Of a DNA stretch of 64,000 bases, positions 6,021 to 36,894 are shown one piece after another. Position 1 is the stretch's first letter. The number at the start of each line of letters is the position of its first letter. Source of the DNA: Mycolicibacterium aichiense (lineage in GTDB: Bacteria > Actinomycetota > Actinomycetes > Mycobacteriales > Mycobacteriaceae); assembly GCF_010726245.1 (NCBI RefSeq), contig NZ_AP022561.1, forward strand, positions 1,612,001 to 1,676,000. The letters run 5' to 3'. The translations under genes and the position numbers were made by a program. The notes below the pieces were generated by a model that saw nothing but the letters and a program-made list of their open reading frames with translations, made no database searches and was not told where the DNA came from.

Positions 6021-6021
6021 A

Positions 6022-12131: not shown

Positions 12132-12132
12132 C

Positions 12133-12987: not shown

Positions 12988-12997
12988 CGGGCCATCC

Positions 12998-14005: not shown

Positions 14006-14458
14006 TCACCGGTTCTGTGAGCCCCCCGGCAGCCGAACCACCTGGACGAAGAACTCGTCGATCTGCCGGACCGCGCTCATGAACTGGTCGAGGTCGACCG
14101 GTTTGGTGACGTAGGCGTTGGCGTGCAGCTTGTAGCTGCGCAGGATGTCCTCTTCGGCCGACGACGTGGTGAGCACCACCACCGGGATGGTGCTGAGGTC
14201 GTCGTCGGATTTGATCTTCTCCAGCAGCTGCCGCCCGTCGTATTTGGGCAGGTTCAGGTCCAGCAGGATGAGGTCCGGGCGAGGAGCATCGGCGAATGGG
14301 CCGCGCCGGTACAGATAGTCCAGGCCTTCCTGCCCGTCGTGCACCACATGCAGGGTGTTCTTGAGCTTGTTGTGCTCGAACGCCTCCCGGGTGATGAGCT
14401 CGTCTCCGGGGTCGTCCTCGATGAGCAGGACGTCGATGGCGCGACTGCTGTCGCTCAT
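14006..14458 (-). CDS. stand-alone response regulator receiver (Rcp1/CheY-like)
   Basis: The 150-residue protein is a single receiver domain with no output domain. The acidic pocket is LLIEDDPGD, the phosphoacceptor is Asp67 in ILLDLNLP, and the conserved lysine lies in YVTKPVDL. The spacing and the insertion around YLYRRGPFADAP match the Rcp1 type that pairs with phytochrome-like histidine kinases. The start overlaps the stop of the upstream kinase gene as ATGA. It probably receives phosphate from that kinase and passes it on, or acts by binding a partner protein. Confidence 0.92.
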   Translation of the reverse strand: MSDSSRAIDVLLIEDDPGDELITREAFEHNKLKNTLHVVHDGQEGLDYLYRRGPFADAPRPDLILLDLNLPKYDGRQLLEKIKSDDDLSTIPVVVLTTSSAEEDILRSYKLHANAYVTKPVDLDQFMSAVRQIDEFFVQVVRLPGGSQNR

Positions 14459-16047
14459 GAAGCGGTTCCTTCCAGTTGCAAAGCTCGGGTATCGGGTGCG
14501 ATATGGGCGGGCAGGGTGAAGCGGAATCGGGTACCGCCGTCGTAGGCGGTGTCGATCGAGATGGTGCCGCCGTGGTGCTCGACGATCTTCTTCACCAGCG
14601 CCAGGCCGATTCCGGTGCCTGCATAGGCATCCCGGCCGTGTAGCCGCTGGAAGATCACGAACACCTTGTCGACGAATTCGTCGGCGATTCCGATTCCGTT
14701 GTCGGAGAACGTGAACACCCACTGCCCTTCGTCATCACCGGTACCGGTTTCGGAGGTGATGGCGATGCGCGGGGCAACGTCGTCGCGGCGGAACTTCACC
14801 GCGTTGCTGACCAGGTTCTGCCACAACATCGTCAGCAGGGTCGGGTCGCCGGTCACCGTGGGCAACGGGCCCGAGCGGGTGATCTCGGCACCGGTCTCCT
14901 CGATCGCGGTGGCCACATTGGCGATTGCGGCGTCCAGCACGGTATCGAGCTTCACGTCGACCTGGGTGGCGTGCAACCGGCCGACCCTGGAGAACGTCAA
15001 CAGGTCGTTGATCAAAACCTGCATCCGCTTGGCGCCGTCGACAGCGAAATCGATGTACTGGTGGCCACGTTCGTCCAGCTGGTCGCCGTAGCGCTTCTCC
15101 AGCAGCTGACAGAACGACGCGACCTTGCGCAGTGGCTCCTGCAGGTCGTGCGACGCGACGTAGGCGAATTGCTCGAGCTCGGCGTTGGAGCGACGAAGCT
15201 CGGCGGCCTGTTCGTCCAGTTGTGCGCGGGCTTCGCTGGACGCCTCGAGTTCGTCGACGATACGGCGTCGCATGCCTTCGACGTCGGCGGCGATCGCGCG
15301 AATATCCTTGGGGCCCTCGGGAATGATCTGCTCGTCGAAGTTTCCCTTGGTGATCCGCCGGCACGCGGATGCCAAGGCCTCCATGGGTCGGGTGACCGCA
15401 TTGCGAACCAGGATCGTGATCGCGAAGCCGGTGATCAGGAAGGCGGCGATCACCACGGCCGAGGCGCGGTCGCGCCACGCCTGGGCGGTGTCGAGCTGTT
15501 GCACCGCGTCGGTGCGGGCGGCGGCGAGGTGCTGATTCTGCGCGTCGAAAAGCCCTCGCAGGGAATCGAATTTCGACTTCCCGGCTTCCGCGGTGGCCTT
15601 CGTCAACACGCTCGGTGAGCCAGGTGTGACGCTGGCGATCAGCGGACCCGCGTATTGGCCCCGCCAGGTCGCCGCCGAGTTCTCTATCGCGTCAAGGTCG
15701 GCGAGTAACTCGGGGCGTCCGGCGAGCTGATGTCGAATAGCCTGCGCTGCAGTCTGTTCGGTGCGCTGGCCCTCGTAGTAGGGCGATAAGAACTGTTCGT
15801 CGGCGGCGATGACATAGCCGCGAACCGCGGTCTCCTGATCACGCAACGCGGCCTGCAGCTGGTAGGCGGCGACACGCGCGGGCTGAATGTTGTCGATCAG
15901 CTGCCGGCTGGTCTCGTCGGTTCGGTTGAGTAGCACCGCCGCCACCAGTGCGCCGCCGAACACCACCACACCGAGCATCAACAGCACGACGCTGAGCCAG
16001 CCCCGCACCGTCATACCGGACAGCCGGGTGCCCGCAACCTCTTTCAT
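14455..16047 (-). CDS. membrane histidine kinase with CHASE3 and HAMP domains
   Basis: The 530-residue sensor kinase has a first membrane segment (about residues 15-38), an extracytoplasmic helical region of CHASE3 type (about 40-185), a second membrane segment (about 195-217), a HAMP domain, and a coiled coil. A HisKA domain follows, with phosphoacceptor His300 in ASHDLQEPL, the form found in phytochrome-like kinases. A HATPase domain comes last, with N box NLVSNAVKF, G1 box FSDNGIGI and G2 box GTGIGLAL. Both ends overlap neighbouring genes by four bases. The stimulus is unknown. The genes on either side supply a phosphatase and a receiver, which suggests a phosphorelay controlling a phosphatase. 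Confidence 0.92.
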   Translation of the reverse strand: MKEVAGTRLSGMTVRGWLSVVLLMLGVVVFGGALVAAVLLNRTDETSRQLIDNIQPARVAAYQLQAALRDQETAVRGYVIAADEQFLSPYYEGQRTEQTAAQAIRHQLAGRPELLADLDAIENSAATWRGQYAGPLIASVTPGSPSVLTKATAEAGKSKFDSLRGLFDAQNQHLAAARTDAVQQLDTAQAWRDRASAVVIAAFLITGFAITILVRNAVTRPMEALASACRRITKGNFDEQIIPEGPKDIRAIAADVEGMRRRIVDELEASSEARAQLDEQAAELRRSNAELEQFAYVASHDLQEPLRKVASFCQLLEKRYGDQLDERGHQYIDFAVDGAKRMQVLINDLLTFSRVGRLHATQVDVKLDTVLDAAIANVATAIEETGAEITRSGPLPTVTGDPTLLTMLWQNLVSNAVKFRRDDVAPRIAITSETGTGDDEGQWVFTFSDNGIGIADEFVDKVFVIFQRLHGRDAYAGTGIGLALVKKIVEHHGGTISIDTAYDGGTRFRFTLPAHIAPDTRALQLEGTAS

Positions 16048-24315: not shown

Positions 24316-24391
24316 GGGGCTATGGCGCAGTTGGTAGCGCACCACACTGGCAGTGTGGGGGTCAGGGGTTCGAATCCCCTTAGCTCCACCA
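24316..24391 (+). tRNA. tRNA-Ala (anticodon GGC)
   Basis: The sequence folds into a full cloverleaf. The acceptor stem is GGGGCTA/TAGCTCC with one G-T pair, the D stem is GCGC/GCGC, the anticodon stem is CCACA/TGTGG with loop CTGGCAG (anticodon GGC), and the T arm is AGGGG-TTCGAAT-CCCCT with discriminator A. CCA is encoded at 24389-24391. The 3' 42 bases recur at 34643-34684, which marks this gene as the integration target of the island that follows. Its own 3' half was probably supplied by the element. Confidence 0.97.
24347..24388 (+). repeat. left attachment-site repeat (attL), within tRNA-Ala
   Basis: These 42 bases begin exactly at the first base of the anticodon loop and end at the discriminator base. 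They are identical to 34643-34684. The bases just outside differ on both sides (A versus C on the left, C versus G on the right), so the repeat ends are sharp. After the mismatched base CAGG is again shared. Confidence 0.9.
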
Positions 24392-24602
24392 GGCACGGCA
24401 GTACTCGTTTGGGTGCTCGGCAGGTTGTTTGACCACAATTCGTTGTCGGCCGATCTGACGCATACGCGGCACATCTAGCCGGCAAGGCGGCCATTAGCAG
24501 TCGGCGCCTTCGGTCTCAATGTGTTGTGGTCACACTGCCCGGGTGACCAATATCGCCCAGCGGACTCGCACAGACCGACGGCAACCCGGCCGATTTGGTA
24601 CG
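24392..24602. other. left end of the island, no gene seen
   Basis: About 210 bases lie between the tRNA and the TetR stop codon. This is where an integrase gene would be expected, but no frame of useful length with protein-like composition was found. An inverted repeat with nine-base arms (CGGCAACCC at 24579-24587 and GGGTTGCCG at 24606-24614) spans the TetR stop codon and could act as a terminator for tetR. It has an 18-base loop and no T-run, so this is weak. Confidence 0.4.
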
Positions 24603-25199
24603 TCAGGGTTGCCGGTCGATCAGGTCGATGATCGCCCGTTGGGCTTCACCGACTTCGAGGGGCAGTGTGGCGAACATTTCGGCGATCATCATCGCGACCG
24701 GCGTCGTCCACAGCAGCATGCCCAGTGCCGCGGCGTTCTGGCCGCCATGACTGGTTTCCAGCCGTTGCGTCACATTCGCGAGAGCCGCACCCAGTCGCTC
24801 CATGTGTCGGCTATCGAGGCCGGAACGCAGTTCTTTGGTGGATATGAGGATCTCGAGACCGGCCATTGCTTTGGGGTTGGCGAATGCTTCCCAGGCGCCG
24901 CGCACCAAGTCGCTGGTGTCGATCGGCTGGTCGGGGTCGGACAACGCCTCGAGAGAGGCGACCAGGCGATCGACGGCGTCGTCGATGACTGCGATCAGCA
25001 AGCCGTCGCGGTCGCCGAAGTGATGCTGAATGACGCCCCATGTCACACCGGCGCGTTCGATGATGTGACGTGCGCTCGCCGCTGAAAATCCTTCTTCGCG
25101 GATGCAGCGGACCGTCTCGTCGATGAGGCGTTCACGAGTGCGGTCACCGCGTTCGCGGCGGCCGGTGGTGGGACGGTCGGGGCTCCTGCGTGCACTCAT
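24603..25199 (-). CDS. TetR-family transcriptional regulator (likely repressor of the island mce operon)
   Basis: The 198-residue protein has an N-terminal TetR helix-turn-helix domain at about residues 20-65 (RERLIDETVRCIREEGF, then SARHIIERAGVTWGVIQHHFGDRDGLL) and an all-helical ligand-binding C-terminus. The ATG at 25199 is preferred, with AGGGA at ribosome-site distance; a TTG five codons upstream is an alternative. The gene is divergent from the EBP-like gene and the mce genes. By analogy with Mce3R, which represses mce3 in M. tuberculosis, it probably controls them and responds to a lipid ligand. Unlike Mce3R, it is a single TetR unit. Confidence 0.88.
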   Translation of the reverse strand: MSARRSPDRPTTGRRERGDRTRERLIDETVRCIREEGFSAASARHIIERAGVTWGVIQHHFGDRDGLLIAVIDDAVDRLVASLEALSDPDQPIDTSDLVRGAWEAFANPKAMAGLEILISTKELRSGLDSRHMERLGAALANVTQRLETSHGGQNAAALGMLLWTTPVAMMIAEMFATLPLEVGEAQRAIIDLIDRQP

Positions 25200-25243
25200 T
25201 GCCGTCCCTGCCAAGCGTGTCGCCTCATCCGTAGCACATTAGG

Positions 25244-25253
25244 ACACCGGTGT
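25244..25253. promoter_or_regulatory. palindrome, possible TetR operator 1
   Basis: The perfect ten-base palindrome ACACCGGTGT lies 45 bases upstream of the tetR start codon, where an autoregulatory operator would sit. The flanking bases extend the symmetry with one mismatch on each side. Assignment as an operator is inference. Confidence 0.35.
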
Positions 25254-25310
25254 TCGTCGACTGATCGCGTAGGCGTGCTGCTGGTGTGTCGTCGACGCTT
25301 GCCTTTCAAA

Positions 25311-25326
25311 CATGGCATGTGCCATG
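25311..25326. promoter_or_regulatory. inverted repeat, possible TetR operator 2
   Basis: The repeat has perfect seven-base arms CATGGCA and TGCCATG around a two-base spacer. It lies in the 283-base divergent region, about 157 bases ahead of the EBP-like start codon and 112 bases ahead of tetR. Its size and symmetry fit a TetR operator or the binding site of another dimeric repressor. The rest of the divergent region contains no other gene that I can support. Confidence 0.45.
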
Positions 25327-25482
25327 CTAGCGAAGAGGCGGGTGCCTGCTTGGTCGAACATCAATCGTCAAGCTAAAGCAGCGGGTCCGTCGGCACTTGC
25401 TACTGAATGTGACTGCTGCCAGTGGGGCTTCGTCGAGCTCGTCGCTGGCAGGCAAGTCCGGCGCGGGCATGGAGGCACGACG

Positions 25483-26244
25483 GTGACAGAGACGATTCCT
25501 CACGATGGCAAACACGATTCGTCGACGAGGCGGGGACTGTCCGTACTGCAGAAGTCTCTTTTCGGCATTTTGGCGTTCTTCTTCGTCATCCACATCTTCT
25601 TCTGGTACCTCGAATACCGTGTTGGGGTATCGCATGTCGTCGCCTCAACAACGTTGGTGGTCTTTGTCGTCGGCTGCTTCGTGACGGCACTGGTCCTTCC
25701 GTGGCTACCCCTTCCGGGGCAGCGGGATTGGACGCGGGCGCAGCGACTGAGTGCGATGGTGATCGTGTGGGTGTTCATCGCCCTGATACCACGGTTTATC
25801 TGGGAACTGCCGTGGCTCTTGTTCTTCAACGAGATCCGAACGGGCGTCGAGAATGGCGCGCTCTGGACATATATGTGGTCGCCGATCCTCCTGGGCGGTG
25901 ACGCACGCTATTTGAACGGTGACCCGCTGATCGTGGTGCTGGAGTGGATCGCGTTCTTCATCGGTTTGTTCGAGGCCTATGCGATGGTGCAGTTCTTCCG
26001 GAATGGCAAGCGCTTCACCAGTACTCAGTTGTCCTTCATCATGGGCGGCATGATCGTGGAGGTCACGCTGCCTGCGGTCTACTTCGGTGTGGAGATCGCG
26101 AACAACATGCAGAGCATGACCAGCCCGGTCGAGATGTGGATCAAGTTCGTAGTCCTGAACCTGTTGTGGTGCACCATGCCGCTGGTCACCTATTTCTGGG
26201 GCGTACGCAGACTGACGCGCCAAGACTTCGCTGTTGCTTTCTGA
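25483..26244 (+). CDS. emopamil-binding protein (EBP/EXPERA)-like membrane protein
   Basis: This 253-residue protein has five to six membrane segments. Its second half matches the EBP family of sterol delta8-delta7 isomerases as I recall human EBP. Here GGDARYLNGDP (139-147) matches GDSRYILGDN, VVLEWIA with Glu154 matches VCMETIT, and FVVLNLLWCTMP (222-232) matches FVFMNALWLVLP. Glu108 in FIWELPW lines up with a catalytic glutamate of EBP, but Arg104 replaces the expected histidine, so isomerase activity is uncertain. The GTG at 25483 has GGAGG seven bases upstream; an in-frame ATG at 25312 overlaps the dyad and lacks a ribosome site. The gene lies 108 bases ahead of mceA, in the place normally taken by yrbEA and yrbEB. 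Confidence 0.72.
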   Translation: MTETIPHDGKHDSSTRRGLSVLQKSLFGILAFFFVIHIFFWYLEYRVGVSHVVASTTLVVFVVGCFVTALVLPWLPLPGQRDWTRAQRLSAMVIVWVFIALIPRFIWELPWLLFFNEIRTGVENGALWTYMWSPILLGGDARYLNGDPLIVVLEWIAFFIGLFEAYAMVQFFRNGKRFTSTQLSFIMGGMIVEVTLPAVYFGVEIANNMQSMTSPVEMWIKFVVLNLLWCTMPLVTYFWGVRRLTRQDFAVAF

Positions 26245-26352
26245 ACCGTTGGATTCGTCGTGTCTCAGTGGGAAGCGATCCAGTGAAATGCCCTGTAGCG
26301 CAAAACTAGTCGGTGGAGCAAAGACTTCGAGCGTCTTGGTTTCAGGTAGTCG

Positions 26353-27537
26353 ATGAGGTCGTATGCGCGCCCGTTGGCTGGTCTGGCGATGGTTGTGGCC
26401 ATAGTCGGGATTGTGATCGTGGCGGCGGGGATGTTCCGCGGCAGTTTCGCCGACACGGTCCCCCTGACGGTGCTGTCGCAGCGGGCGGGTCTGGTGATGA
26501 ATCCGGACGCGAAGGTCAAACTGGTTGGTGTTCCGGTGGGGAACGTCGTGTCGATCCAAGAGCGTCCTAACGGTCAGGCCGCGATCCTGCTGGCCATGGA
26601 TCCGGCTCAACTGGCGCAGATTCCGGACAACGTCAAAGTCGACATCTCCTCGTCGACGGTCTTCGGCGCCAAATCGATTGACCTTGTTGCGCCGGCGAAT
26701 CCATCGACGCAGAAGCTGCGGCCAGGGCAGGTGCTGACCGCAGAGCATGTGACGGTCGAATTCAACACCATTTTTCAGCAGCTGTCCTCGGTGCTATCGG
26801 CGATCCAGCCGGAGAAGCTCAACGAGACCCTAGGGGCGATCTCCTCGGCGTTCAACGGCCGCGGCCCGCAACTCGGGCGCACCCTGAGCGATTTCGACGC
26901 ACTGCTGGCCAAACTCGAACCCAGCCTGCCCAATCTCGCCCACGACAGCGACACGGCACCGGAGGTGCTCAACGCCTACGCCGATGCCAGCCGCGATCTC
27001 GTCACCACGCTCGATGACGCGACCCACATCAGCCAGACCATCACCGAGGAACAGAACAGTCTGGATGCGTTCCTGGTCAGCACGATTGGGCTAGCCGACG
27101 TCGGCAACGACGTCCTCGGATCGAACCGCGCGGGCATCAGCGACGTGTTCCGAGTGTTGGTGCCCACCACCGATTTGACCAACCGGTATCACCAAGGCCT
27201 GAACTGCGGGATCAGCGCGCTGGCCGTGATCGCCTCGGGTCCACCGTTGGAGAAGCCGGGCATCACCGACTCCATCGGATTCCTGCTGGGCCGCGAACGG
27301 TACCGCTATCCGATGAACCTGCCAAAGGTCGCCGCCACCGGCGGCCCGCAGTGCACCTCGCTACCGAGAGTGCCATTCGACACCGGGCCACCGTTCGTCG
27401 TCACCGATGTGGGAACCAACCAGGCCCAGTACGGCAATCAGGGCATCTTGCTCAACTCCGATGGGCTCAAGCAATTGCTCTTCGGGCCCCTGCCCGGACC
27501 TGCCCGCAACACCGCCCAGATCGGAGAACCAGGGTGA
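26353..27537 (+). CDS. mceA: Mce family protein MceA, island cluster
   Basis: The 394-residue protein has an N-terminal anchor (about residues 8-28), an MCE domain at about 38-115 (AGLVMNPDAKVKLVGVPVGNV), the MceA motif SSTVFGAKSIDLVAP and a helical domain. The C-terminus includes LNCGISAL and a short Pro-rich end; it is about 60 residues shorter than the other MceA in the window. It is the first mce gene of the island. No yrbE gene precedes it. The ribosome site is weak (AGG seven bases before the ATG at 26353). Confidence 0.93.
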   Translation: MRSYARPLAGLAMVVAIVGIVIVAAGMFRGSFADTVPLTVLSQRAGLVMNPDAKVKLVGVPVGNVVSIQERPNGQAAILLAMDPAQLAQIPDNVKVDISSSTVFGAKSIDLVAPANPSTQKLRPGQVLTAEHVTVEFNTIFQQLSSVLSAIQPEKLNETLGAISSAFNGRGPQLGRTLSDFDALLAKLEPSLPNLAHDSDTAPEVLNAYADASRDLVTTLDDATHISQTITEEQNSLDAFLVSTIGLADVGNDVLGSNRAGISDVFRVLVPTTDLTNRYHQGLNCGISALAVIASGPPLEKPGITDSIGFLLGRERYRYPMNLPKVAATGGPQCTSLPRVPFDTGPPFVVTDVGTNQAQYGNQGILLNSDGLKQLLFGPLPGPARNTAQIGEPG

Positions 27538-28556
27538 GCGGCACACGGGGACACATCCTGAAATTCGGTGCCTTCGGCGTCGTCATGGTCGTGCTGACTG
27601 CGTTTCTATTCATGATCTTCGGGCAGTACCGCACCGGTTCGACCAACGCCTACTCCGCAGTGTTCGTCGACGTATCGGGACTGAAAACAGGTGATTCAGT
27701 GCGAGCAGGCGGTCTACGTGTCGGCACCGTCGCCGATATCTCGATGCGGCCAGATCACACCGTGACGGTCGCGTTCGACGCTGACCGCACCGTCGTGCTG
27801 AGCAGCGGCACCCGCGCCGCGGTGCGCTATCTCAACCTGGTGGGCGACCGATTCCTGGAACTCATCGACGGACCAGGCTCAGCCAGAGTGATGCAACCCG
27901 GCTCACAGATCCCCGCCGATCGAACTGCACCGGCGCTGGACCTCGATCAGCTATTGGGCGGTCTCAAACCGGTCATCCAGGGGCTGAATCCTCAAGATGT
28001 CAACGCATTGACCAACGCTCTGCTGCAGATCTTCCAGGGCCAGGGCGGCACTGTGGACTCGTTGCTGACCAAGACGGCATCGTTTTCCAACGGGCTGGCC
28101 GACAACAACCAGATCATCGAAGCGCTGATCGACAACCTCAACGCCGTGATCGGCACACTCGCCACCAGCGGAAGTCAGTTCGCCGATGCCATCGACCGCT
28201 TCCAGCGGTTGGTCTCCGAATTGGCCGCCCACCGCGACCCCATCGGCGAGGCCATCGACGCCCTCGACAGCGGCACAACATCGATCGCCGATCTGCTTGG
28301 ACAGGCTCGCCCGCCGCTAGCCGGCACCATCGATCAGCTGAGCCGCTTGGCGCCCCTACTCGACGACCAGAAAGGCCTGCTCGACGGGGCTCTGCAATCA
28401 GCCCCGGACAACTACCGCAAACTCGTCCGGCTCGGCGCCTACGGAAGTTGGATCAACTACTACATCTGCGAACTCACCGTCCGCGTCACCGATCTGCAAA
28501 ACCGGACCGCCGTCTTCCCGTTTATCAAACAAGACAACGGCAGGTGCGCCGAGTAA
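27534..28556 (+). CDS. mceB: Mce family protein MceB, island cluster
   Basis: The 340-residue protein has a membrane anchor (FGVVMVVLTAFLFMIFG), an MCE domain at about residues 35-115 (GLKTGDSVRAGGLRVGTV), the MceB segment RTAPALDLDQLLGGLKPVI and the cysteine-containing tail DNGRCAE. These match the minus-strand MceB of this window in layout. The GTG at 27534 overlaps the mceA stop as GTGA. Confidence 0.93.
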   Translation: MSGTRGHILKFGAFGVVMVVLTAFLFMIFGQYRTGSTNAYSAVFVDVSGLKTGDSVRAGGLRVGTVADISMRPDHTVTVAFDADRTVVLSSGTRAAVRYLNLVGDRFLELIDGPGSARVMQPGSQIPADRTAPALDLDQLLGGLKPVIQGLNPQDVNALTNALLQIFQGQGGTVDSLLTKTASFSNGLADNNQIIEALIDNLNAVIGTLATSGSQFADAIDRFQRLVSELAAHRDPIGEAIDALDSGTTSIADLLGQARPPLAGTIDQLSRLAPLLDDQKGLLDGALQSAPDNYRKLVRLGAYGSWINYYICELTVRVTDLQNRTAVFPFIKQDNGRCAE

Positions 28557-29641
28557 TGCTGAAATACCGCCAATCACGCCTCGTGCGAACGGGATTCATC
28601 GGCGCTGTCCTGATCATTCTCGTCATCACCGTCGGCCTGCAACCCGAACGGCTCACCGCGTGGGCCACCTCTTTGCGATTCCAGGCAGTCTTCGCCGAAG
28701 CCGGGGGACTGACCACCGGCAACGACGTCCGGCTGGCGGGAATGAAAGTCGGTCAGGTGGACGATGTTTCACTCGACGACGAAGGTAAGGCACTGATCAC
28801 CTTCAGCGTCGACAGTGCGATCACACTCGGCAACGACACGTCCGCGCACATCAGGACCGGCACCCTGCTGGGGCAGCGCATCCTCACGCTGGAATCCGCA
28901 GGCAACGGCCTGCTACGTCGCGGCGCGGTCATACCGCTATCGCGCACCTCCTCGCCGTATTCGCTGACCGAAGCAGTCACCGACCTCACCACCAACACCG
29001 CGGGCACCGACACCCACAACATCAACGCGTCGTTAGATGCGTTGTCGGACACCATTGAGCAGATCACGCCCCAGCTGGGTCCGACCTTCGAGGGGTTGAC
29101 GAAGGTCTCGCGGTCCTTGAACGCCCGCAACGACAGTCTGCGTGAGCTACTCAAGAGCGCGGCGTCGGTCACCGGCACCCTGTCCGAGCGCAGCCAACAG
29201 CTCAACACCCTCATCCTGGACGCCAATGACCTGGTCGCCGTGCTCAACGAGCGGCGCGAAGCGATCGTCAGCCTGCTCGCAAGCACCTCGGCGTTGGCGC
29301 GCGAACTGTCAGGCCTGGTTGCCGACAACGAGAAAGAGCTGGCACCCACATTGCAGAAACTGAACTCCGTGACCGCGATGCTGGAGAAGAATCGCGACAA
29401 CATCGCCAAAGCCCTTCCCGGTCTGGCCAAATACGAAATGACCCAGGGTGAGGCCGTGGCCAGCGGATACTTCTACCAGTCCTACGTCCCCAATCTCATA
29501 CCGGCGCAGGTAATTCAGCCGTTCCTCGACTATGCGCTCGGATTCAGGCGCGGTGTCAACAACGGGCAGCCACCCGACAACGCCGGGCCCCGGGCGGAAC
29601 TCCCGCTGCCCTACAACGGCATCCCGGGTGGTTCCCGATGA
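28556..29641 (+). CDS. mceC: Mce family protein MceC, island cluster
   Basis: The 361-residue protein has one N-terminal membrane segment (TGFIGAVLIILVITVGL), an MCE domain at about residues 38-118 (GLTTGNDVRLAGMKVGQV), and a long helical part. It ends in a short Pro-containing C-terminus, about 70 residues shorter than the MceC at 8.4 kb, which has a long proline-rich tail. The ATG shares one base with the mceB stop codon (TAATG). Confidence 0.92.
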   Translation: MLKYRQSRLVRTGFIGAVLIILVITVGLQPERLTAWATSLRFQAVFAEAGGLTTGNDVRLAGMKVGQVDDVSLDDEGKALITFSVDSAITLGNDTSAHIRTGTLLGQRILTLESAGNGLLRRGAVIPLSRTSSPYSLTEAVTDLTTNTAGTDTHNINASLDALSDTIEQITPQLGPTFEGLTKVSRSLNARNDSLRELLKSAASVTGTLSERSQQLNTLILDANDLVAVLNERREAIVSLLASTSALARELSGLVADNEKELAPTLQKLNSVTAMLEKNRDNIAKALPGLAKYEMTQGEAVASGYFYQSYVPNLIPAQVIQPFLDYALGFRRGVNNGQPPDNAGPRAELPLPYNGIPGGSR

Positions 29642-31068
29642 ACGCCAGGAGGTTACGGCTGGCGGCCGTGGTGGTGTTGGTCGCCTTGCTGCTGGCCGGT
29701 GCTGCCGTGCTCATCCGCAACACCTACTTCGCGCCGAAAGTGATCACCGCCTACTTCGCCAGTGCCACCGGCATTTACCCGGGCGACGAAGTCCGCATCT
29801 CCGGGGTCAAAGTGGGGACCATCGCTGCGATCGAACCGGCCGGCGCCAACGCCAAAATGACCCTTGACATCGAGCGCCGGATAAAAGTTCCTGTCGACGC
29901 CAAGGCCATCATCGTCGCGCAAAGTCTGATTTCGGCTCGTTACGTGCAACTCGCCCCGGCCTACGCCAAGGCCGGTCCTACGATGGCCGACGGAGCGGTG
30001 ATCCCGGTCGAGCGGACCGCAGTGCCCGTGGAATGGGACGAAGTCAAAACCCAACTAACCCGCCTGGCAACAGATTTAGGCCCGCACAGCGGCGTCTCGG
30101 AAACATCGGTGTCCCGCTTCATCGACACCGCGGCCAACGCGATGGACGGCAACGGTGCCAAACTGCGCCAAACGCTGGCCGAACTGTCCGGTCTGGGGCG
30201 GATTCTGGCCGACGGCAGTGGCAACATCGTCGATATCCTGAAAAACCTCCAGACGTTTGTCACCGCGCTGCGTGACAGCAACCAGCAGATCGTCGAATTC
30301 CAAGGACATTTCGCGACACTGACCAGCGTGGTCAACGACCGCACTGACCTCGACTCCACCCTGAAAGATCTGAACGCCGCGGTCAGTGACGTGCAACGAT
30401 TCGTCAGAGGCAGCCGCGATCAGACAGTGGAACAGCTGCAAAGGCTGACCAACGTCACCCAGACGCTGGTCGACCACAAACGCGATCTCGAGAACATCTT
30501 GCACGTCACGCCCAATGCCATCGCCAACGGCTACAACATCTACAACCCGGACACCCACAGCAATATCGGCTCCTTCGTGTTGAACAACTTCTCCAACCCG
30601 GGAGCCTTCCTGTGTCAGGCGATCGAAGCCGTCGCCGACGTCACCGCGGGCGAGACCGCAAAACTGTGCAGCCAATACCTCGGTCCGGCCCTCAACACGG
30701 TCGGGTTCAACTATCTGCCGTTTCCGTTCAGCTCCTACCTGATGAAATCACCGAGCCCAGAAAACCTCATCTACTCCGAGCCCAACCTCGCCCCCGGCGG
30801 GACCGGGCCGAGACCTGCCGCCCCCGATGTGCCGCCAGCGATCTCCGCCTATACCGGCCTGAACGGCGACCAAGCGCCCCCACCCGGATACGGCGCGCCA
30901 CCAGCAGTCGCCCCCGGCCCCTCGGCGCCGGATCACCTGCCCGCCGACCCCTCTCCGGCCCTCTACCCGGGAGCCCCGGTCCCGCAGTCGCGAAGCCTCA
31001 ACGACCTACTGCTGCCCGCTGAGGCGACCCCTGCACCGGCATCGGCAGCGGAGGTACCGCCCTCATGA
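29638..31068 (+). CDS. mceD: Mce family protein MceD, island cluster
   Basis: The 476-residue protein has an anchor (LAAVVVLVALLLAGAAVLI), an MCE domain at about residues 35-115 (IYPGDEVRISGVKVGTI), and the MceD sequence RTAVPVEWDEVKTQL, the same as in the other MceD. It ends in a long Pro/Ala-rich tail (APPPGYGAPPAVAPGP). It overlaps mceC and mceE by ATGA at both ends. Confidence 0.93.
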   Translation: MNARRLRLAAVVVLVALLLAGAAVLIRNTYFAPKVITAYFASATGIYPGDEVRISGVKVGTIAAIEPAGANAKMTLDIERRIKVPVDAKAIIVAQSLISARYVQLAPAYAKAGPTMADGAVIPVERTAVPVEWDEVKTQLTRLATDLGPHSGVSETSVSRFIDTAANAMDGNGAKLRQTLAELSGLGRILADGSGNIVDILKNLQTFVTALRDSNQQIVEFQGHFATLTSVVNDRTDLDSTLKDLNAAVSDVQRFVRGSRDQTVEQLQRLTNVTQTLVDHKRDLENILHVTPNAIANGYNIYNPDTHSNIGSFVLNNFSNPGAFLCQAIEAVADVTAGETAKLCSQYLGPALNTVGFNYLPFPFSSYLMKSPSPENLIYSEPNLAPGGTGPRPAAPDVPPAISAYTGLNGDQAPPPGYGAPPAVAPGPSAPDHLPADPSPALYPGAPVPQSRSLNDLLLPAEATPAPASAAEVPPS

Positions 31069-32375
31069 CCACTCGCCGACGCAGCCGCACGCTAGCGGTC
31101 ATCGCCAGCTGTGCAGTAGCGACGCTGTCCGGCTGCGGATTCAACGGCCTCAATTCCCTACCATTGCCCGGTGCCGTCGGACGAAGCCCCGACGCCAACG
31201 TCTACCACATTCAATTCGCCAATGTCGGTACCCTGGAACCGAATTCGCCGGTAATGATCGATGACGTCGTCGTCGGCAGCGTCCGACAGATGACCTTCTC
31301 CAACTGGCACATCGACGTCGAAGTGTCGGTGAAGCCGGACGTTGTCGTTCCGGCCAACGCCGAAGCCAGCGTCGGCCAAACCAGCCTGCTCGGCTCGATG
31401 CACATCGCGCTCGACCCCCCGCTCGGCCAACCGCCCACCGGAAGGCTCAATCCCGGAGCGACCGTTCAACTCGACAAAACCTCGACCTACCCGTCGACCG
31501 AACAGACCCTGGCGTCGCTAGCCGCCGTCGTCAACGGCGGGGGACTGGGCCAAATCGGCGACGTCATCCACAACTTCGCCGCCGCCCTATCCGGCCACGA
31601 AGGCGACATCCGGGATCTGCTGACCCGCCTGAACACGTTCGTCGACACACTGGATCGCCAGCGCGACAACATCATTGCCTCCATCCAAGCTCTCAACCGA
31701 CTGGCGGGGACCTTTGCCGAACAACGCGACCTCATCACCACCGCGCTGAACAAGATCCCGCCGGCACTGGACGTGCTGATCCGCGAACGTCCCCGCCTCA
31801 CCACGGCACTGGACAAACTGCGCACCTTCAGCACCACCGCAACCGGATTGGTCAACGACACCCAGGCGAACCTGGTCAAAAACCTGCACAACCTGCAACC
31901 CACCTTGCAAGCGCTCGCCGATGTGGGGCCAGACCTCGACAACGCCCTGGTATTCGGCTCGGTGTTCCCCTTCGGACAAGACCTCATCAAGCGCGGTGTC
32001 CGGGGTGACTACATGAACTTCTTCGGCCAAATCGACCTGACCGTGCCCCGGCTCAAACGCTCACTACTGCTGGGCACCCGGTGGGAAGATCAGAAAGCCC
32101 AGCTCGTACCTGCCCCCGGGGAACCGTATTGGCAGAAGTACACCTACGACCCACTGGGCCTACCGATCGCGCCGCCGCCCCCGGGTGGGCCGCTCGGCCC
32201 GGTACCGGGAAACCCGCCGACACCCGGGCTGAATGCACTGCCACCCGGCGTTGTACTCCCGGTCAGCCCACCACCGCCTGTTGCCTCCGCCGAACCCGCG
32301 CAACCAGGCACACCACCGGTCTTCGCCGGACCTTACGGCCCCGCCGACGCGACCCCCGCACCCGGAGACCGCTGA
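31065..32375 (+). CDS. mceE: Mce family lipoprotein MceE, island cluster
   Basis: The 436-residue lipoprotein has a canonical lipobox (LSGC at about residues 21-24), the MceE motif GLNSLPLPG and an MCE domain at about residues 42-125 (NSPVMIDDVVVGSV). Helical segments and the conserved RGDYMNFF stretch follow. Its C-terminus is rich in proline and about 60 residues longer than that of the other MceE. The start overlaps mceD by ATGA. Confidence 0.93.
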   Translation: MTTRRRSRTLAVIASCAVATLSGCGFNGLNSLPLPGAVGRSPDANVYHIQFANVGTLEPNSPVMIDDVVVGSVRQMTFSNWHIDVEVSVKPDVVVPANAEASVGQTSLLGSMHIALDPPLGQPPTGRLNPGATVQLDKTSTYPSTEQTLASLAAVVNGGGLGQIGDVIHNFAAALSGHEGDIRDLLTRLNTFVDTLDRQRDNIIASIQALNRLAGTFAEQRDLITTALNKIPPALDVLIRERPRLTTALDKLRTFSTTATGLVNDTQANLVKNLHNLQPTLQALADVGPDLDNALVFGSVFPFGQDLIKRGVRGDYMNFFGQIDLTVPRLKRSLLLGTRWEDQKAQLVPAPGEPYWQKYTYDPLGLPIAPPPPGGPLGPVPGNPPTPGLNALPPGVVLPVSPPPPVASAEPAQPGTPPVFAGPYGPADATPAPGDR

Positions 32376-33940
32376 TGCTCACCCGTTTCATCAAAACGCA
32401 ACTCGTCATCTTCACGATCGCCTCGGTGGTCGGACTGGGGCTGATGGTGTTCAACTACCTGCAAGCGCCGGTGTTTCTGGGTATCGGCCGCATCACCGTG
32501 ACCCTGGACCTCCCCGCCGCCGGCGGACTGTACCCGTTGAGCAATGTCACCTACCGTGGCGTTCAGATCGGCAAGGTCACCGACGTCAAAGCCGTCGACG
32601 CTAGATACGCCCAAGCGACGCTGTCATTGGACTCCAACCAGAAGATTCCCGCGAATCTCATCGCCCAAGTGCGCAGTGTGTCGGCCGTCGGCGAACAATA
32701 CGTCGACCTGCAACCGGTCGACCAATCCCCGCCATATCTGCATGACGGCTCGGTAATTGGCATGGGGCAGAGCAGAATCCCGCAACGAGTCGGCCCGATG
32801 CTGGATCAGCTCAGTGCGCTGGTTGGGACCATCCCGAAAGACAAACTGACCTCGCTGCTCGACGAATCGTTCACCGCGTTCAACGGCGCCGGCTACGACG
32901 TCGGTTCGCTGCTGGACTCCTCATCCCGGATCGCCGGCGACCTCAACGGCGTCGCCGACCACACCCGCGCTCTCATCGACGACAGCGGCCCCCTCCTCGA
33001 TGGGCAAGCGGCGACCACCGACTCGTTGAAGACCTGGGCGCACAACCTGGCCGGCATCACCGGCCAGATCAGACAGAGCGATCCGCAAGTGCGGACACTG
33101 CTGCACACCGGCCCCGGGTTCGCCGACGAAGTCTCGGCGCTGCTCAATCAAGTCAAACCCACACTGCCGGTTCTGCTCGCCAACCTCACCACAGTCGGCC
33201 AAGTTCTCGTCACCTACAACAAGTCTGTCGAGCAGCTCCTGGTCTTACTTCCGCCCTACATCGGCGCAATCCAGTCGTCGACACCAGTCAACAATCCGAC
33301 AGGAGATGCACTGGGCGACTTCTCCATCACCATCGCCGACCCACCCGCCTGCACCGTCGGATTCCTACCCCGCTCGGCCTGGCGCGCCCCGTCGGACACC
33401 ACCGAAGTCGACACACCCGATGGGCTCTACTGCAAACTGCCGCAAGACTCACCGATCGCCGTTCGCGGCGCTCGCAACTATCCCTGCATCGAGCACCCCG
33501 GAAAACGTGCCGCCACCGTGCAGGACTGCGACAGCGACAAACCCTTCGAGCCACTGGCCCTCCGTCAACACGCATTAGGGCCGGCCCCACTCGATCCGAA
33601 CCTCATCGCACAAGGAATTCCCCCCGACAGCCGAGTCACCAACGACGACAAGATCTTCGGCCCCCTCGACGGAACCCCAATGCCGCCTGCGGCCGCGCCG
33701 GCTGGACCAGGTGACACGTCTCCGCCACCCGCAGAGCCTGCGCCCGCGTCTGGAGCCCAACCCGTGGCGCCAAGCGCGTACACCAACCGGCCTGCACAGC
33801 AGGCACCCGTCGCAGTTGCCCGATACAACCCCCAAACCGGTTCCTACATGGCACCCGACGGGCACCTGTACGCCCAATCCAATCTCGTCGCCACGGCAAC
33901 ACAAAAATCGTGGACCGACCTCGTCATGACGACGGGATAG
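32375..33940 (+). CDS. mceF: Mce family protein MceF, island cluster
   Basis: The 521-residue protein has a membrane anchor (LVIFTIASVVGLGLMVF), an MCE domain at about residues 38-118 (GGLYPLSNVTYRGVQIGKV), a helical rod, and the MceF-type segment GLYCKLPQDSPIAVRGARNYPC. A Pro/Ala-rich end closes the protein. The ATG at 32375 shares one base with the mceE stop (TGATG). Longer upstream frames overlap mceE and are rejected. Confidence 0.93.
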   Translation: MLTRFIKTQLVIFTIASVVGLGLMVFNYLQAPVFLGIGRITVTLDLPAAGGLYPLSNVTYRGVQIGKVTDVKAVDARYAQATLSLDSNQKIPANLIAQVRSVSAVGEQYVDLQPVDQSPPYLHDGSVIGMGQSRIPQRVGPMLDQLSALVGTIPKDKLTSLLDESFTAFNGAGYDVGSLLDSSSRIAGDLNGVADHTRALIDDSGPLLDGQAATTDSLKTWAHNLAGITGQIRQSDPQVRTLLHTGPGFADEVSALLNQVKPTLPVLLANLTTVGQVLVTYNKSVEQLLVLLPPYIGAIQSSTPVNNPTGDALGDFSITIADPPACTVGFLPRSAWRAPSDTTEVDTPDGLYCKLPQDSPIAVRGARNYPCIEHPGKRAATVQDCDSDKPFEPLALRQHALGPAPLDPNLIAQGIPPDSRVTNDDKIFGPLDGTPMPPAAAPAGPGDTSPPPAEPAPASGAQPVAPSAYTNRPAQQAPVAVARYNPQTGSYMAPDGHLYAQSNLVATATQKSWTDLVMTTG

Positions 33941-33944
33941 CTTG

Positions 33945-34466
33945 ATGCGGAACATAACTCGGCTCACGAATGCCTGCGCCACATACCTCCTCGCGGGCGG
34001 TGCCGTTCTGACAGCGGCGCCGCCATCTGCCGCCGACTATGACCAATACGCCATGAACGGAACATTCACCGTCGTCTCAAACGGTGAATGGGCGCAAATG
34101 AACGGCCGCTATCAAGACCAGCCGACAGTGCGAAGCACCTGGACGGTGACCTCGACGTGCAGCACTGGCATTACCTGCGCAGGCAAAGTCACCAGCTCGC
34201 TGGGGTGGACCGAAGACGTCTACACCGAAGGCGGCTACTTCTGGTTCGTTCGACACCCGGTGCCCGACTGGATACCGTGCCCCGACGGCAGCACCGCCCC
34301 CGGAATCCAGGTCTACAGGTTCTATCCAGCCAAACAAGACGGCACATCACAGCCAATTTCTGACCTGTGGCTCGGAGAAGACCAAACCACCGGCGCCAGC
34401 GGAAACTGCGGACGAAACCAATCACTCGTACTCAACATGCCCCTGAAAATCACCAAGGTCACGTGA
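33945..34466 (+). CDS. secreted protein of mycobacterial type, last island gene
   Basis: The 173-residue product has a signal peptide ending near PPSAAD. The mature domain has four cysteines that may form two disulfides (TCSTGITCAG and CPDG with GNCG) and repeated Trp residues. The pattern DYDQYAMNGTF and VRSTWTVTSTC resembles a group of small exported proteins found in mycobacteria, but I cannot assign a function. It starts four bases after the mceF stop and so belongs to the operon. It may serve the Mce system outside the membrane; this is inferred from position only. Confidence 0.8.
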   Translation: MRNITRLTNACATYLLAGGAVLTAAPPSAADYDQYAMNGTFTVVSNGEWAQMNGRYQDQPTVRSTWTVTSTCSTGITCAGKVTSSLGWTEDVYTEGGYFWFVRHPVPDWIPCPDGSTAPGIQVYRFYPAKQDGTSQPISDLWLGEDQTTGASGNCGRNQSLVLNMPLKITKVT

Positions 34467-34471
34467 CGCGG

Positions 34472-34506
34472 GCGCCGAGACGCGCAACGCGGCCGAGTCT
34501 CGGCGC
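34472..34506 (+). terminator. hairpin terminator of the island mce operon
   Basis: A perfect ten-base stem (GCGCCGAGAC and GTCTCGGCGC) with a 15-base loop begins six bases after the last stop codon of the operon. There is no T-run, which is common for mycobacterial terminator-like hairpins. It is placed correctly to end the EBP-mce transcript before the attachment site. Confidence 0.6.
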
Positions 34507-34536
34507 TGCACACGAGCCGACAATGGCCGCCGAGCA

Positions 34537-34570
34537 CTGACGACAGATCTGATGACAACGCTGACGACAG
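34537..34570 (+). repeat. pair of ten-base direct repeats near the right attachment site
   Basis: CTGACGACAG occurs at 34537-34546 and again at 34561-34570, 24 bases apart and about 75-105 bases inside the right end. Short direct repeats near att cores can be arm-type integrase sites. This is a positional guess; no matching copies were seen at the left end. Confidence 0.35.
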
Positions 34571-34642
34571 TTGCTGCTCGAACTACGCCCGCTGCGCGCC
34601 AGAATCGGATCTATCCTGCCTGGTCACGGGCTCTGCCCGGTC

Positions 34643-34684
34643 CTGGCAGTGTGGGGGTCAGGGGTTCGAATCCCCTTAGCTCCA
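34643..34684 (+). pseudogene. tRNA-Ala 3' remnant, right attachment-site repeat (attR)
   Basis: The 42 bases are identical to the anticodon loop-to-discriminator part of the tRNA-Ala gene at 24316. No acceptor 5' strand, D arm or anticodon 5' strand precedes it, so it cannot form a tRNA. It most likely is the displaced 3' end of the original chromosomal gene. The bases after it read GCA, so the original gene did not encode CCA. Confidence 0.9.
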
Positions 34685-34690
34685 GCAGGG

Positions 34691-34730
34691 AACCCGCCGA
34701 GACCAAAGGTCTGGGCGGTTTCTGCTTTTA
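34691..34730 (+). terminator. hairpin with T-rich tail, probable original tRNA-Ala terminator
   Basis: Arms AACCCGCCGAGACC and GGTCTGGGCGGTTT pair with 12 of 14 matches around an AAA loop, followed by CTGCTTTTA. The hairpin starts six bases after the tRNA remnant, just where a tRNA terminator should be, while the intact tRNA gene at 24316 has no such hairpin behind it. The T-rich tail runs into the stop codon of the MerR gene on the other strand. Confidence 0.65.
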
Positions 34731-35558
34731 CACGGGCGGTGCCGTCGTCCGCAGAATCGGCCAACAAATTTCTGTAGCGGTAAAAGTCGCTGGTGCTGAG
34801 GACGTGCCGCCGAGGTAGTGCTCGCGGATCGGCCCCGGGTGGCTGATCAGGCGCTCGTTGACGTAGGTCCCCAGGGCCCCGTAACTGCGGTCGATGCCTT
34901 CGTTGTGTGCGCCGGGATGGGTGAGAACTGCGTACTCGGCCGCAGGCAGGACTTCGGCGCGGACGCCCTCCGGCGGATCCGCGGATTGCGGCGCTGCGAC
35001 GAATAGCGTTGCATCGCCACGATTTTCGAGGAACAGCGCTCGATTGTAGAGCCCACCCGGCACAATCGCGCAGTCCACGCCTGCCGCCGCGGCGACCACG
35101 TCGCGCAGTCTTCCCAGTGCTACCCCGAACCAGGTGTCGATCTCGGCAGTCTCGATGGTGGCGCTGACGGACCACACCGCGAGCGGCGGTTCCCGGCGTA
35201 TGTCCACGTGCGCAGCGGCGCGTACAGGCGAGAGCAACTCGCGCAGCGCGCCTACGGTGTCACGGGTCTGCTGCAACTGCACCTCCATCTGCTCGAGATG
35301 CGTGGTGATGATCTCGGCGCGGGCCGCGGCGTCATCCGTACTCAGCAGCGCCTTGATGTCGGGAATGGACATGCCGAGCGATCGGAACCGGCGGATGATG
35401 TGCGCATGATCGACCTGGCTGGTGTCGTAGAAGCGGTAGCCGGTGTAGGGGTCGACGTGGGCCGGTTCGAGGATGCCGATGTCGTGGTAGTGCCGTAGCG
35501 CCTTCCTGCTCAGGCTCGTCATCACGGCGAAGTCACCGATCGATACCTTCGCACCCAT
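34728..35558 (-). CDS. MerR-family regulator with GyrI-like effector domain
   Basis: The 276-residue protein begins with a MerR winged helix (SIGDFAVMTSLSRKALRHYHDIGIL, then the wing with GYRFYDTSQ). A dimerising coiled coil at about residues 80-120 follows, then a C-terminal GyrI-like ligand-binding domain. This is the architecture of multidrug-sensing TipA/BmrR-type activators. The ATG at 35558 has GGGGA just upstream. It is divergent from the SnoaL-SDR pair, with MerR-type promoters facing both ways. The ligand is unknown. Confidence 0.88.
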   Translation of the reverse strand: MGAKVSIGDFAVMTSLSRKALRHYHDIGILEPAHVDPYTGYRFYDTSQVDHAHIIRRFRSLGMSIPDIKALLSTDDAAARAEIITTHLEQMEVQLQQTRDTVGALRELLSPVRAAAHVDIRREPPLAVWSVSATIETAEIDTWFGVALGRLRDVVAAAAGVDCAIVPGGLYNRALFLENRGDATLFVAAPQSADPPEGVRAEVLPAAEYAVLTHPGAHNEGIDRSYGALGTYVNERLISHPGPIREHYLGGTSSAPATFTATEICWPILRTTAPPV

Positions 35559-35598
35559 GGCGTCCCCTCTGCGTTCCGTCGCCCTATCGAACACGGTC

Positions 35599-35629
35599 AT
35601 CCTGAAGCCTGCCCCTAGGGCAAGGTCAA
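35599..35629 (-). promoter_or_regulatory. MerR-type promoter for the merR gene
   Basis: Read on the minus strand, TTGACC (35629-35624) and CAGGAT (35604-35599) are separated by 19 bases, the long spacer typical of MerR-regulated promoters. The spacer holds an imperfect dyad with CCTTGCCC and GGGGCAGG as arms. TTGACCTTGCCC here matches 11 of 12 bases of the sequence that starts the opposite promoter. Confidence 0.55.
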
Positions 35630-35655
35630 CGTCGCGGCATGAGCGCGATCCCGGC

Positions 35656-35686
35656 TTGACCTTCCCCTTACGGAAACCTCCATCGT
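35656..35686 (+). promoter_or_regulatory. MerR-type promoter for the SnoaL-SDR operon
   Basis: TTGACCTTCCCC at 35656-35667 repeats the element of the divergent merR promoter (11 of 12 bases). With a 19-base spacer the -10 would be CATCGT at 35681, a weak box that fits the need for MerR activation. A partial dyad TTCC/GGAA lies in the spacer. The start codon follows at 35693, so the transcript would be leaderless or nearly so. Confidence 0.45.
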
Positions 35687-35692
35687 GGGGCC

Positions 35693-36034
35693 ATGACCAC
35701 GTCAGAATGGGAAACACTCCCAGAAACCGTAAGAATCTTCATGACTGCGCTCGACTCCCAGGAAGTCGAGCGGGCGCTCGCCACCCTCACCAGCGATGCC
35801 GTGGTGACCGATGAAGGGCACGACTACACCGGGACCGATGAGATCGGGACCTGGTTGGCCACCGCGAGCAGCGAATATACATACACCGCCGAGTTCACCG
35901 GCGCGACCACGACGGACGCAGGCGTCGACCTCACGCAGCACCTGGAAGGCAACTTCCCCGGCGGGGTCGCCGACCTGCACTATCGATTCACCCTGGATGG
36001 CGCGGTGATCAGCCGGCTGGTGATCGAGCCATGA
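35693..36034 (+). CDS. SnoaL-like (NTF2-fold) protein
   Basis: The 113-residue protein has the SnoaL/NTF2-like pattern of an N-terminal helix (FMTALDSQEVERALATLTSDAVVTDEG), a glycine-containing loop YTGTDEIGTWL, and beta strands ending in FTLDGAVISRLVIEP. Such domains bind hydrophobic ligands or act as small isomerases or hydrolases. Its stop overlaps the SDR start codon as ATGA, so the two products are coupled and may act on the same substrate. Confidence 0.82.
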   Translation: MTTSEWETLPETVRIFMTALDSQEVERALATLTSDAVVTDEGHDYTGTDEIGTWLATASSEYTYTAEFTGATTTDAGVDLTQHLEGNFPGGVADLHYRFTLDGAVISRLVIEP

Positions 36035-36894
36035 CGCGACGGTGGTTCATCACCGGGGGGACGCCCGGCAACTTCGGGATGGCGTTCGCCGAAGCGGCGC
36101 TCGAGACCGGGGACCGCGTGGTGCTCACGTCTCGACGTCCGGAGGAGCTGGCGTCGTGGGCCGACCAGTACGGCGACCGGGTTCTCGTCGTACCGCTCGA
36201 CGTCACCGACCCCGAGCAGGTGTCGCGGGCGGTGGCGGCGGCCGAGGAGCAGTTCGGTGGCATCGATGTGCTGGTCAACAACGCCGGCCGCGGGTGGTTC
36301 GGATCGATAGAGGGGATGGACGAGTCCTCGGTGCGGGCGATGTTCGAGCTGAACTTCTTCGCGGTGCTGTCTGTGACGCGAGCGGTGCTTCCGGGGATGC
36401 GCGCCCGCGGCGACGGATGGATCGTGAACGTGTCCTCGGTGGCCGGGATCGTGGCGGCGCCAGGATTCGGCTATTACAGCGCGACGAAGTTCGCCGTGGA
36501 AGCCGTTACCGAGACCCTCCGCGACGAAGTCGCTCCACAGGGCATCTCTGTGCTGGCAGTCGAACCAGGGGCGTTTCGCACAAACGCCTACGCCGGCTTC
36601 GTCGATGAGCCTGTCGCGGAGCCGATTCGGGAGTACCACGACATGTTGCAGCAGGTTCGCGCCACATTCGTCGAGATGGATGGGGTGCAACCCGGCGATC
36701 CGCGCCGCGGTGCGCGGGCGGTGATCACGGCGATGGCCCTAGACCCGCCTCCCCGACGGCTGGTCCTGGGCAACGGCGGATACGACGCCGTGATCGACAC
36801 GTTGGAGGGTGCCGTGGCCGACATCAAGGCGAACGAAACCCTGTCTCGCAGCGCAGACTTTCCCAGCCCGCCAGCTGATGTCCGCGCGCCGTAG
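36031..36894 (+). CDS. short-chain dehydrogenase/reductase
   Basis: The 287-residue oxidoreductase has a Rossmann nucleotide site TGGTPGNFG, slightly off the usual TGxxxGxG. It also has DVTDPEQV, the NNAG motif (VLVNNAGRG), the catalytic serine in VNVSSVAG and the Tyr-Lys pair in YYSATKFAVE. An arginine pair in TSRRPEE suggests NADP preference. The product is probably an oxidoreductase for a small alcohol or ketone induced through MerR; the substrate is unknown. Confidence 0.9.
   Translation: MTRRWFITGGTPGNFGMAFAEAALETGDRVVLTSRRPEELASWADQYGDRVLVVPLDVTDPEQVSRAVAAAEEQFGGIDVLVNNAGRGWFGSIEGMDESSVRAMFELNFFAVLSVTRAVLPGMRARGDGWIVNVSSVAGIVAAPGFGYYSATKFAVEAVTETLRDEVAPQGISVLAVEPGAFRTNAYAGFVDEPVAEPIREYHDMLQQVRATFVEMDGVQPGDPRRGARAVITAMALDPPPRRLVLGNGGYDAVIDTLEGAVADIKANETLSRSADFPSPPADVRAP

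Follow-up and report, generated by a model that had tools for sequence, protein, structure and literature searches.

What is a full set of mceA-F genes doing between two copies of a tRNA 3′ end, and how could it have come there? The question is raised by a 64,000-nucleotide stretch of the Mycolicibacterium aichiense genome (assembly GCF_010726245.1, contig NZ_AP022561.1, positions 1,612,001 to 1,676,000; hereafter the window, numbered from its first letter), in which a TetR-family regulator gene, a gene for an EBP-like membrane protein, mceA-F and a gene for a last, Rv2253-like protein are enclosed by a perfect repeat at tRNA-Ala(GGC). A sequence-only reading had taken these ten kilobases for a genomic island that carries a whole lipid importer. 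Here we compare the locus with other genomes of the genus (G000 is the genome that contains the window, other G-codes are compared genomes, and L-codes are loci in them). We conclude that the segment is not an autonomous island; the 10.3 kb very probably represent a module of the cis-mobilizable element (CIME) type, that is, cargo bounded by attachment sites attL and attR, which has the ends of a family of actinomycete integrative and conjugative elements (AICEs) at tRNA-Ala(GGC) and would be mobilized via such an AICE.

A crossover core at tRNA-Ala(GGC)

The integration target is the tRNA-Ala(GGC) gene at 24316-24391 on the plus strand, the sole tRNA that ARAGORN found in the window. The attL core (24347-24388) and the attR core (34643-34684), both given on the plus strand, are identical over 42 bp and 98% identical over 47 bp. 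As the sequence-only reading had it to the base, this is a perfect repeat linking the tRNA to a remnant, and the 64-kb window has no other direct repeat that reaches 30 nt; by a simple estimate the chance expectation of such a match is near 1e-16. The core runs from tRNA position 32, the first base of the anticodon loop, to the discriminator base, again as had been read, and with at most one mismatch the attL core recurs in all 14 other contexts compared. The encoded CCA of the window's tRNA (24389-24391) is formed by the first bases of the element's left end. The same holds at occupied sites generally, whereas in G093, which is unoccupied, and in G024 the tRNA has no encoded CCA and is followed by CTTTT. 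The GC content of the segment is 62.6% vs 66.3% in the rest of the window, with only 1 of 215 sliding windows of the same size lower, and the GC content of the AICE described below is 62.1%.

A query spanning a major facilitator superfamily (MFS) gene and the tRNA-Ala was matched in all 118 genus genomes searched with it, with both parts adjacent in many of the rows. In G093 a terminator hairpin comes immediately 3′ of the tRNA-Ala, and a DUF3297 gene comes next; its counterpart in the window lies at 37.0 kb. Of the empty site that had been expected (tRNA, hairpin, MerR gene), the unoccupied tRNA-hairpin junction is thus present in G093, with DUF3297 standing where MerR had been predicted, and the exact order was not seen among the contexts read. 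This empty site, together with the low GC content, bears out integration at the tRNA. In the window the hairpin, recognised from the sequence, lies at 34691-34722 (plus strand), outside the element, and it stands 3′ of the last core in G009, G053, G565, G456, G594 and G004. Among the contexts read, the gene after the hairpin is MerR in G000 and in G053, an occupied site, and DUF3297 in G093, G009, G565 and others.

Other cargos occupy the same position. In G009 two cores lie 10.2 kb apart with arsenic genes between them (ArsA, ArsD and ArsR-type domains among the 6 of 14 predicted open reading frames (ORFs) that were scanned), and the hairpin and DUF3297 gene follow the second core with clean boundaries; in G053 two cores are separated by 23.4 kb. 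Sequence matching the element's right end, arms and core included, is present in at least 52 of 396 genus genomes, a lower bound obtained by counting rows with query start ≤15 and end ≥145 and scoring two candidates per genome. The 42-bp repeat serves a family of elements at tRNA-Ala(GGC) as their crossover core.

Arm-type repeats accompany the core. On the right, TGACGACA, TGATGACA and TGACGACA begin at 34538, 34550 and 34562 (34538-34569, plus strand) with 12-bp spacing, and repeats at equal offsets (105, 93 and 81 bp left of the core) are found in 7 of 7 elements compared, although one of the three is altered in the window, G565 and G009. Among 500 first-order Markov resamples, 0-1 had equally many exact arm copies. 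On the left, TGACCACA at 24430-24437 (plus strand), 41 bp inside attL, differs by one mismatch from TGACGACA; of 7 elements compared, 5 have a left-arm copy at 40-41 bp, and in G558 and G039 the copy is placed differently (for G039, with the distance counted from the end of the tRNA).

Further observations concern the surroundings of the site. The MerR gene was considered as part of the island and rejected, because its position is beyond attR and because in G004 some 100 kb separate it from the tRNA. Between the hairpin and DUF3297, window positions 34728-36894 hold a MerR-type regulator gene and a short-chain dehydrogenase gene, an arrangement shared by G000 and G053; in other genomes this pair is found elsewhere, and here it represents a further insertion without att repeats. 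In G024 (L082, 4204-4245) an attP-like core has element-right-end sequence on its left and left-end-like sequence on its right, and it lies 1.8 kb from a tRNA-Ala that has a terminator directly 3′. In G098 (L086, C1:130001-146000) a different mce operon, with yrbE and with 21-32% Mce identity, occupies 7647-15099, about 5.6 kb downstream of the same tRNA-Ala, with no second core in the 16 kb read.

A candidate AICE carrier at the same site

The 23.4-kb element of G053, of which 10 of 22 predicted ORFs were scanned, encodes a 425-aa tyrosine integrase (Phage_integrase and SAM-like domains), RepSA (a pSAM2-type initiator, E 4.6e-133) and an FtsK/SpoIIIE-type ATPase with an FtsK_SpoIIIE domain. 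With an integrase, a replication initiator and a translocase of the FtsK/TraB type, all lying between att sites at the 3′ end of a tRNA gene, it qualifies as an AICE. It also encodes NUDIX and HD proteins and, as cargo, one MceA-type protein, a cytochrome P450 and an MMPL protein.

This AICE has spread very recently. Its integrase occurs with 100% identity in 10 of 396 genomes, and 17 of 396 have one that is at least 66% identical (E 1e-150); at that threshold G000 has no match. From core to core the AICE is 99.98-100% identical to that of G053 in G004, G418, G594, G431, G587, G456 and G436 (in G436 around an insertion), and in G565 it is 99.96% identical over 21.1 kb and 98.9% over 2.2 kb. 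In the same eight genomes identity is only 86-92% in the neighbouring MFS gene, so the jump in identity sits at the core. The copy in G039 is more diverged (87-96%). That in G436 (L235/L236) has an insertion of about 1.1 kb relative to G053.

The module behind the AICE and its transfer between species

G418 and G565 both read tRNA-Ala, core, AICE, core, TetR-EBP-mceA-F-Rv2253-like, core: the module of the window stands there immediately behind an element that has an integrase and occupies the same site. Its proteins are 93-98% identical to those of the window and its nucleotide sequence is 95.9% (G418) and 95.1% (G565) identical over 10.1-10.3 kb. In G565 the last core is followed by the empty-site hairpin, and in G418 the module is followed by another module with P450 and ferredoxin domains.

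Of the 4-fold degenerate sites in the nine module genes, 1706 of 1885 (90.5%) are the same in G000 and G418, vs 991 of 1420 (69.8%) in six chromosomal genes, and in a tree of a 4.5-kb chromosomal stretch from 13 genomes G000 groups with G565 and G587 (support 100), while G418 groups with G004 and G093 (99), neither of which has the module. Because the silent sites are so similar and G418 belongs with relatives that lack the module, at least one move of the module between species has taken place, and the horizontal movement proposed from the sequence alone is borne out. G565, the nearest to G000 in the compared chromosomal stretch (95.7%), gives a different picture: 1643 of 1863 sites (88.2%) agree in the module vs 1508 of 1756 (85.9%) in eight chromosomal genes. 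Ten chromosomal ORFs had been tried for these comparisons, of which six (G418) and eight (G565) passed the filters.

Proposed mobilization of the module and alternative explanations

CIMEs have lost their integration and transfer genes and kept attL and attR, and tandems of a CIME with an integrase-bearing element arise by accretion (PMC5704250; published systems are cited here and below as described in the available parts of the sources). To judge from its sequence, the module has these structural features: attL and attR are retained, the left arm being weak, and a Pfam and NCBIfam scan of the predicted genes between the cores gave no yrbE, integrase or other integration or transfer genes, nor any integrase match at the locus. 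A module without an integrase therefore fits a CIME; with no integrase, replication or transfer genes of its own it is not an AICE. The tandem with a related integrative element is seen in G418 and G565 and not in the window itself. Tandem AICEs can excise singly or together (PMC3218068). In the mechanism that we propose, an incoming AICE would integrate at the tRNA-side att site, its tyrosine integrase would also act on the ends of the module, and the composite, or the module alone, would excise and ride on AICE conjugation. Departure of the AICE alone would leave the state found in the window.

Several observations weigh against mobilization via the AICE. The left arms are weak, with no exact copy in the window or in G418 (one mismatch each) and with the G558 copy elsewhere, and in G039 the tRNA-side core was not matched. 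The module, searched as the EBP-like protein at ≥97%, is present in only 3 of 396 genus genomes, and identity between the G418 module and the window is only 88% over the first 150 bp, rising to 95.9% thereafter. The silent sites of G000 and G565 may reflect plain vertical inheritance. Lastly, AICE and module did not make their latest moves together: G418 and G565 share 99.88% identity over most of the AICE and 94.6% over the module, which places the arrival or replacement of the AICE later than the divergence of the module copies.

A different account is that a larger AICE with mce cargo decayed in situ, losing its integrase, replication and transfer genes, so that the module is an immobile fossil. 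Such decay is the usual origin of CIMEs (PMC5704250), the arm repeats of the window are partly degenerate, and the AICE of other species carries a lone mceA-type gene among its cargo; decay may yet be how the module originated. The same 10-kb content with the same ends in three species, however, together with the silent sites of G418 and G000 (above), implies that the module moved after it had reached its present form, and we regard a fossil that has stayed in place as possible but rather unlikely.

Transfer by homologous recombination across the flanks, the MFS-tRNA side and the downstream gene, with no site-specific step, would leave the same gene order. The flanks are conserved enough to permit it, and the leftmost 150 bp of the G418 module differ more than the rest. 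Yet the MFS gene at 86-92% adjoins an AICE at about 99.9% or more, G000 and G418 are 95.9% identical inside the module vs 89.6% in the MFS gene and 88.4% across the tRNA, and different cargos have common boundaries and right-arm repeats, which makes this explanation very improbable. We reject almost entirely the idea that no element is involved and that the module is simply an mce locus passed on vertically next to a tandem tRNA fragment: G565, the nearest genome to G000, does have it, with silent sites near the chromosomal value, but it is absent from G587, G024, G431 and G053 (the next closest of 12 compared), unrelated AICE and ars cargos have the same ends, G418 is incongruent, and the empty site of G093, the tandem arrays with the AICE and the silent sites contradict a core locus or a tRNA duplication. 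Mobilization as a CIME-type module via the AICE remains the reading that we adopt.

Genes of the module

Domain scans agree with the gene content first read between the repeats, apart from one start codon. The TetR-family regulator gene (24603-25214, minus strand, start uncertain; PF00440, E 1.9e-10) is followed on the plus strand by the gene for a multi-pass membrane protein of 253 aa with an EBP-like (EXPERA, PF05241) domain at 25483-26244. A longer ORF begins at 25312, and the start is most likely the GTG at 25483, since most homologues are predicted at 253 aa. The mce genes follow, all on the plus strand: mceA at 26353-27537 (TIGR00996, PF11887, PF02470), mceB at 27534-28556, mceC at 28553-29641, mceD at 29638-31068, mceE at 31065-32375 and mceF at 32372-33940. 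The products of all six mce genes score above the TIGR00996 cut-off, and the starts of mceB, mceC and mceF were placed by inference. The last gene (33942-34466, plus strand) encodes a protein with an Rv2253/PknI-dimerization-type domain (NF052447, E 2.2e-19); earlier described simply as exported, it is there and has this domain, and its export is predicted from sequence features.

An mce set without yrbE

The module had been called a complete lipid importer. All of mceA-F are there, and a PF02405 search of the whole genome found no yrbE at the locus; because yrbEA and yrbEB are absent, the importer is not whole. Of an mce operon in the sense of Casali and Riley, the six mce genes are thus found and the two upstream yrbE genes are not. 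G000 has nine six-gene mce sets, of which seven come with paired yrbE genes (the match to one of these genes is split in two) and two, the module and a set at 3.217-3.224 Mb, do without. The description as a complete importer was rejected for want of yrbE, and five yrbE-less relatives without an EBP-like gene (L175, L176, L184, L185 and L187) have other genes, or no called genes, upstream of mceA.

In a tree of concatenated MceA-F the module falls in a yrbE-less clade (support 99) with a set in G102 (L176) nearest (100). A second, distant yrbE-less clade (100) comprises six sets, from M. neoaurum, Mycolicibacter senuensis, Mycobacterium sp. AT1, a groundwater metagenome-assembled genome, G027 and G082, each with an EBP-like gene in its neighbourhood. 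The tree holds 28 of 32 sets; the one-gene set of the AICE and L248, L249 and L250 were dropped, as fewer than six gene types were recognised in them. The sets were drawn from the best MceD hits and the neighbours of EBP-like genes, a choice that does not lend itself to estimating how frequent yrbE-less sets are. The presence of YrbE in them was assessed by tblastn with one query pair, and for L168 and L170 the sequence covered reaches only 1.7-1.8 kb upstream of mceA.

Three other loci of G000 belong to the same subject. A complete mce operon with a yrbE pair lies in the window itself (5124-13651, minus strand), away from the tRNA site. The second yrbE-less mceA-F set (L175, C1:3217003-3223549) has upstream of its mceA a multi-pass membrane protein of another kind and then an adenylate-cyclase-like protein, both labelled by eye. 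A lone yrbE (L188, C1:1752206-1752823), with no neighbouring yrbE match and about 0.1 Mb from the module, could partner an orphan mce set.

We suggest that TetR would control a plug-in set for lipid handling, in which MceA-F would form a periplasmic conduit and borrow a YrbE permease and an ATPase from the host's seven yrbE-bearing mce operons. This borrowing, the ATPase and the ligand are conjectural.

The EBP-like protein

By sequence, the EBP-like protein belongs to the EXPERA family. PF05241 is recovered at E ≤0.01 in 39 of 39 aligned members, with E 0.0021 for the window's member, which is below the Pfam cut-off, and the only PDB match of the family profile at E ≤1 is human EBP sterol isomerase (6oht, E 2e-7). 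The active-site residues named for human EBP are His76, Glu80, Glu122, Asn193 and Trp196, and the H76A mutant loses activity (PMC6549186). Alignment A1 uses 38 of 147 found proteins. With an inferred chain-numbering offset of 8, the last four residues correspond to E108, E154, N226 and W229, invariant in 39 of 39, while the His76 position is an equally invariant Arg104. Four of the five residues of a sterol delta8-delta7 isomerase are thus kept, and because human H76A is inactive and the histidine is here replaced by arginine, it is doubtful that the protein acts as an ordinary delta8-delta7 isomerase. It may plausibly bind a sterol-like ligand, and within the proposed set it would bind or modify a ligand of sterol or terpenoid type.

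Other EBP-like genes, among them those of M. asiaticum, M. alsense and M. intermedium, have no mceA-F set in the stretch covered; most of these genes have a TetR gene beside them. Because two separate mce lineages without yrbE have an EBP-like protein linked to mceA-F, we put forward, as a long shot, a portable permease-less Mce system in which an EXPERA-type protein would replace YrbE or feed a hybrid with a resident YrbE, so that the module would be a substrate-specificity cassette spread by AICEs.

Discussion

The module is an accretion module of a known sort with an unusual cargo, whose carrier the sequence-only reading had missed. It resembles CIMEs formed by accretion, such as those related to ICESt1 of Streptococcus thermophilus and the cis-mobilized pathogenicity islands of Streptomyces (PMC5704250), in being att-bounded, free of integration and transfer genes and in tandem with an integrase-bearing element. 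Unlike them, it resides in mycobacteria at tRNA-Ala(GGC), has an AICE as partner and mceA-F as cargo, and its cis-mobilization is putative. The partner is like pSAM2-type AICEs (PMC3218068) in its tyrosine integrase, RepSA, FtsK-like and NUDIX proteins and its use of a tRNA 3′ part. It differs from the AICEs of that survey, in whose available text serine recombinases are given for all Mycobacterium AICEs but one, in having a tyrosine integrase, in its cargo of a lone MCE protein, P450 and MMPL, and in an identical integrase in 10 of 396 species-level genomes. Few AICEs have been reported in Mycobacteriaceae (PMC8190616, PMC7478629, as far as their available text goes).

To present mobile mce clusters as new evidence for horizontal transfer was an overstatement. 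An mce operon on a genomic island, with horizontal transfer suggested, was published in 2014 (MmGI-1 of M. massiliense, PMC4263727), and MceD-like sequence is found in 34 of 72,556 plasmid records, all at less than 60% identity. MmGI-1 is about 111 kb, a YrbE gene precedes its mce operon, and the available text mentions no attachment repeats, whereas the module is 10 kb, att-bounded and yrbE-less. Carriage of mce by phages was considered and set aside: the one match among 50,697 records was to six places in a 10.7-kb 'Bacteriophage sp.' entry without annotation. Among the matches listed, which mostly leave out subscription journals, no title or abstract opening names an AICE or CIME that carries mce genes. 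In canonical mycobacterial operons, as far as the source describes them, mce genes occur 'almost always' in sixes downstream of two DUF140 (yrbE) genes (PMC1810536); the module shares their six genes A-F in order, with PF02470 and PF11887, and has an EBP-like gene upstream where those have the two yrbE.

Mce transporters have been studied mainly as chromosomal systems that set which lipids mycobacteria take up. Here mceA-F is the main cargo of a small att-bounded module whose candidate carrier has spread very recently and whose empty site has been sampled, and the gain of an mce set by integrase action is now directly testable. The missing permease raises the question of whether these Mce subunits work with a YrbE encoded elsewhere, or with something else.

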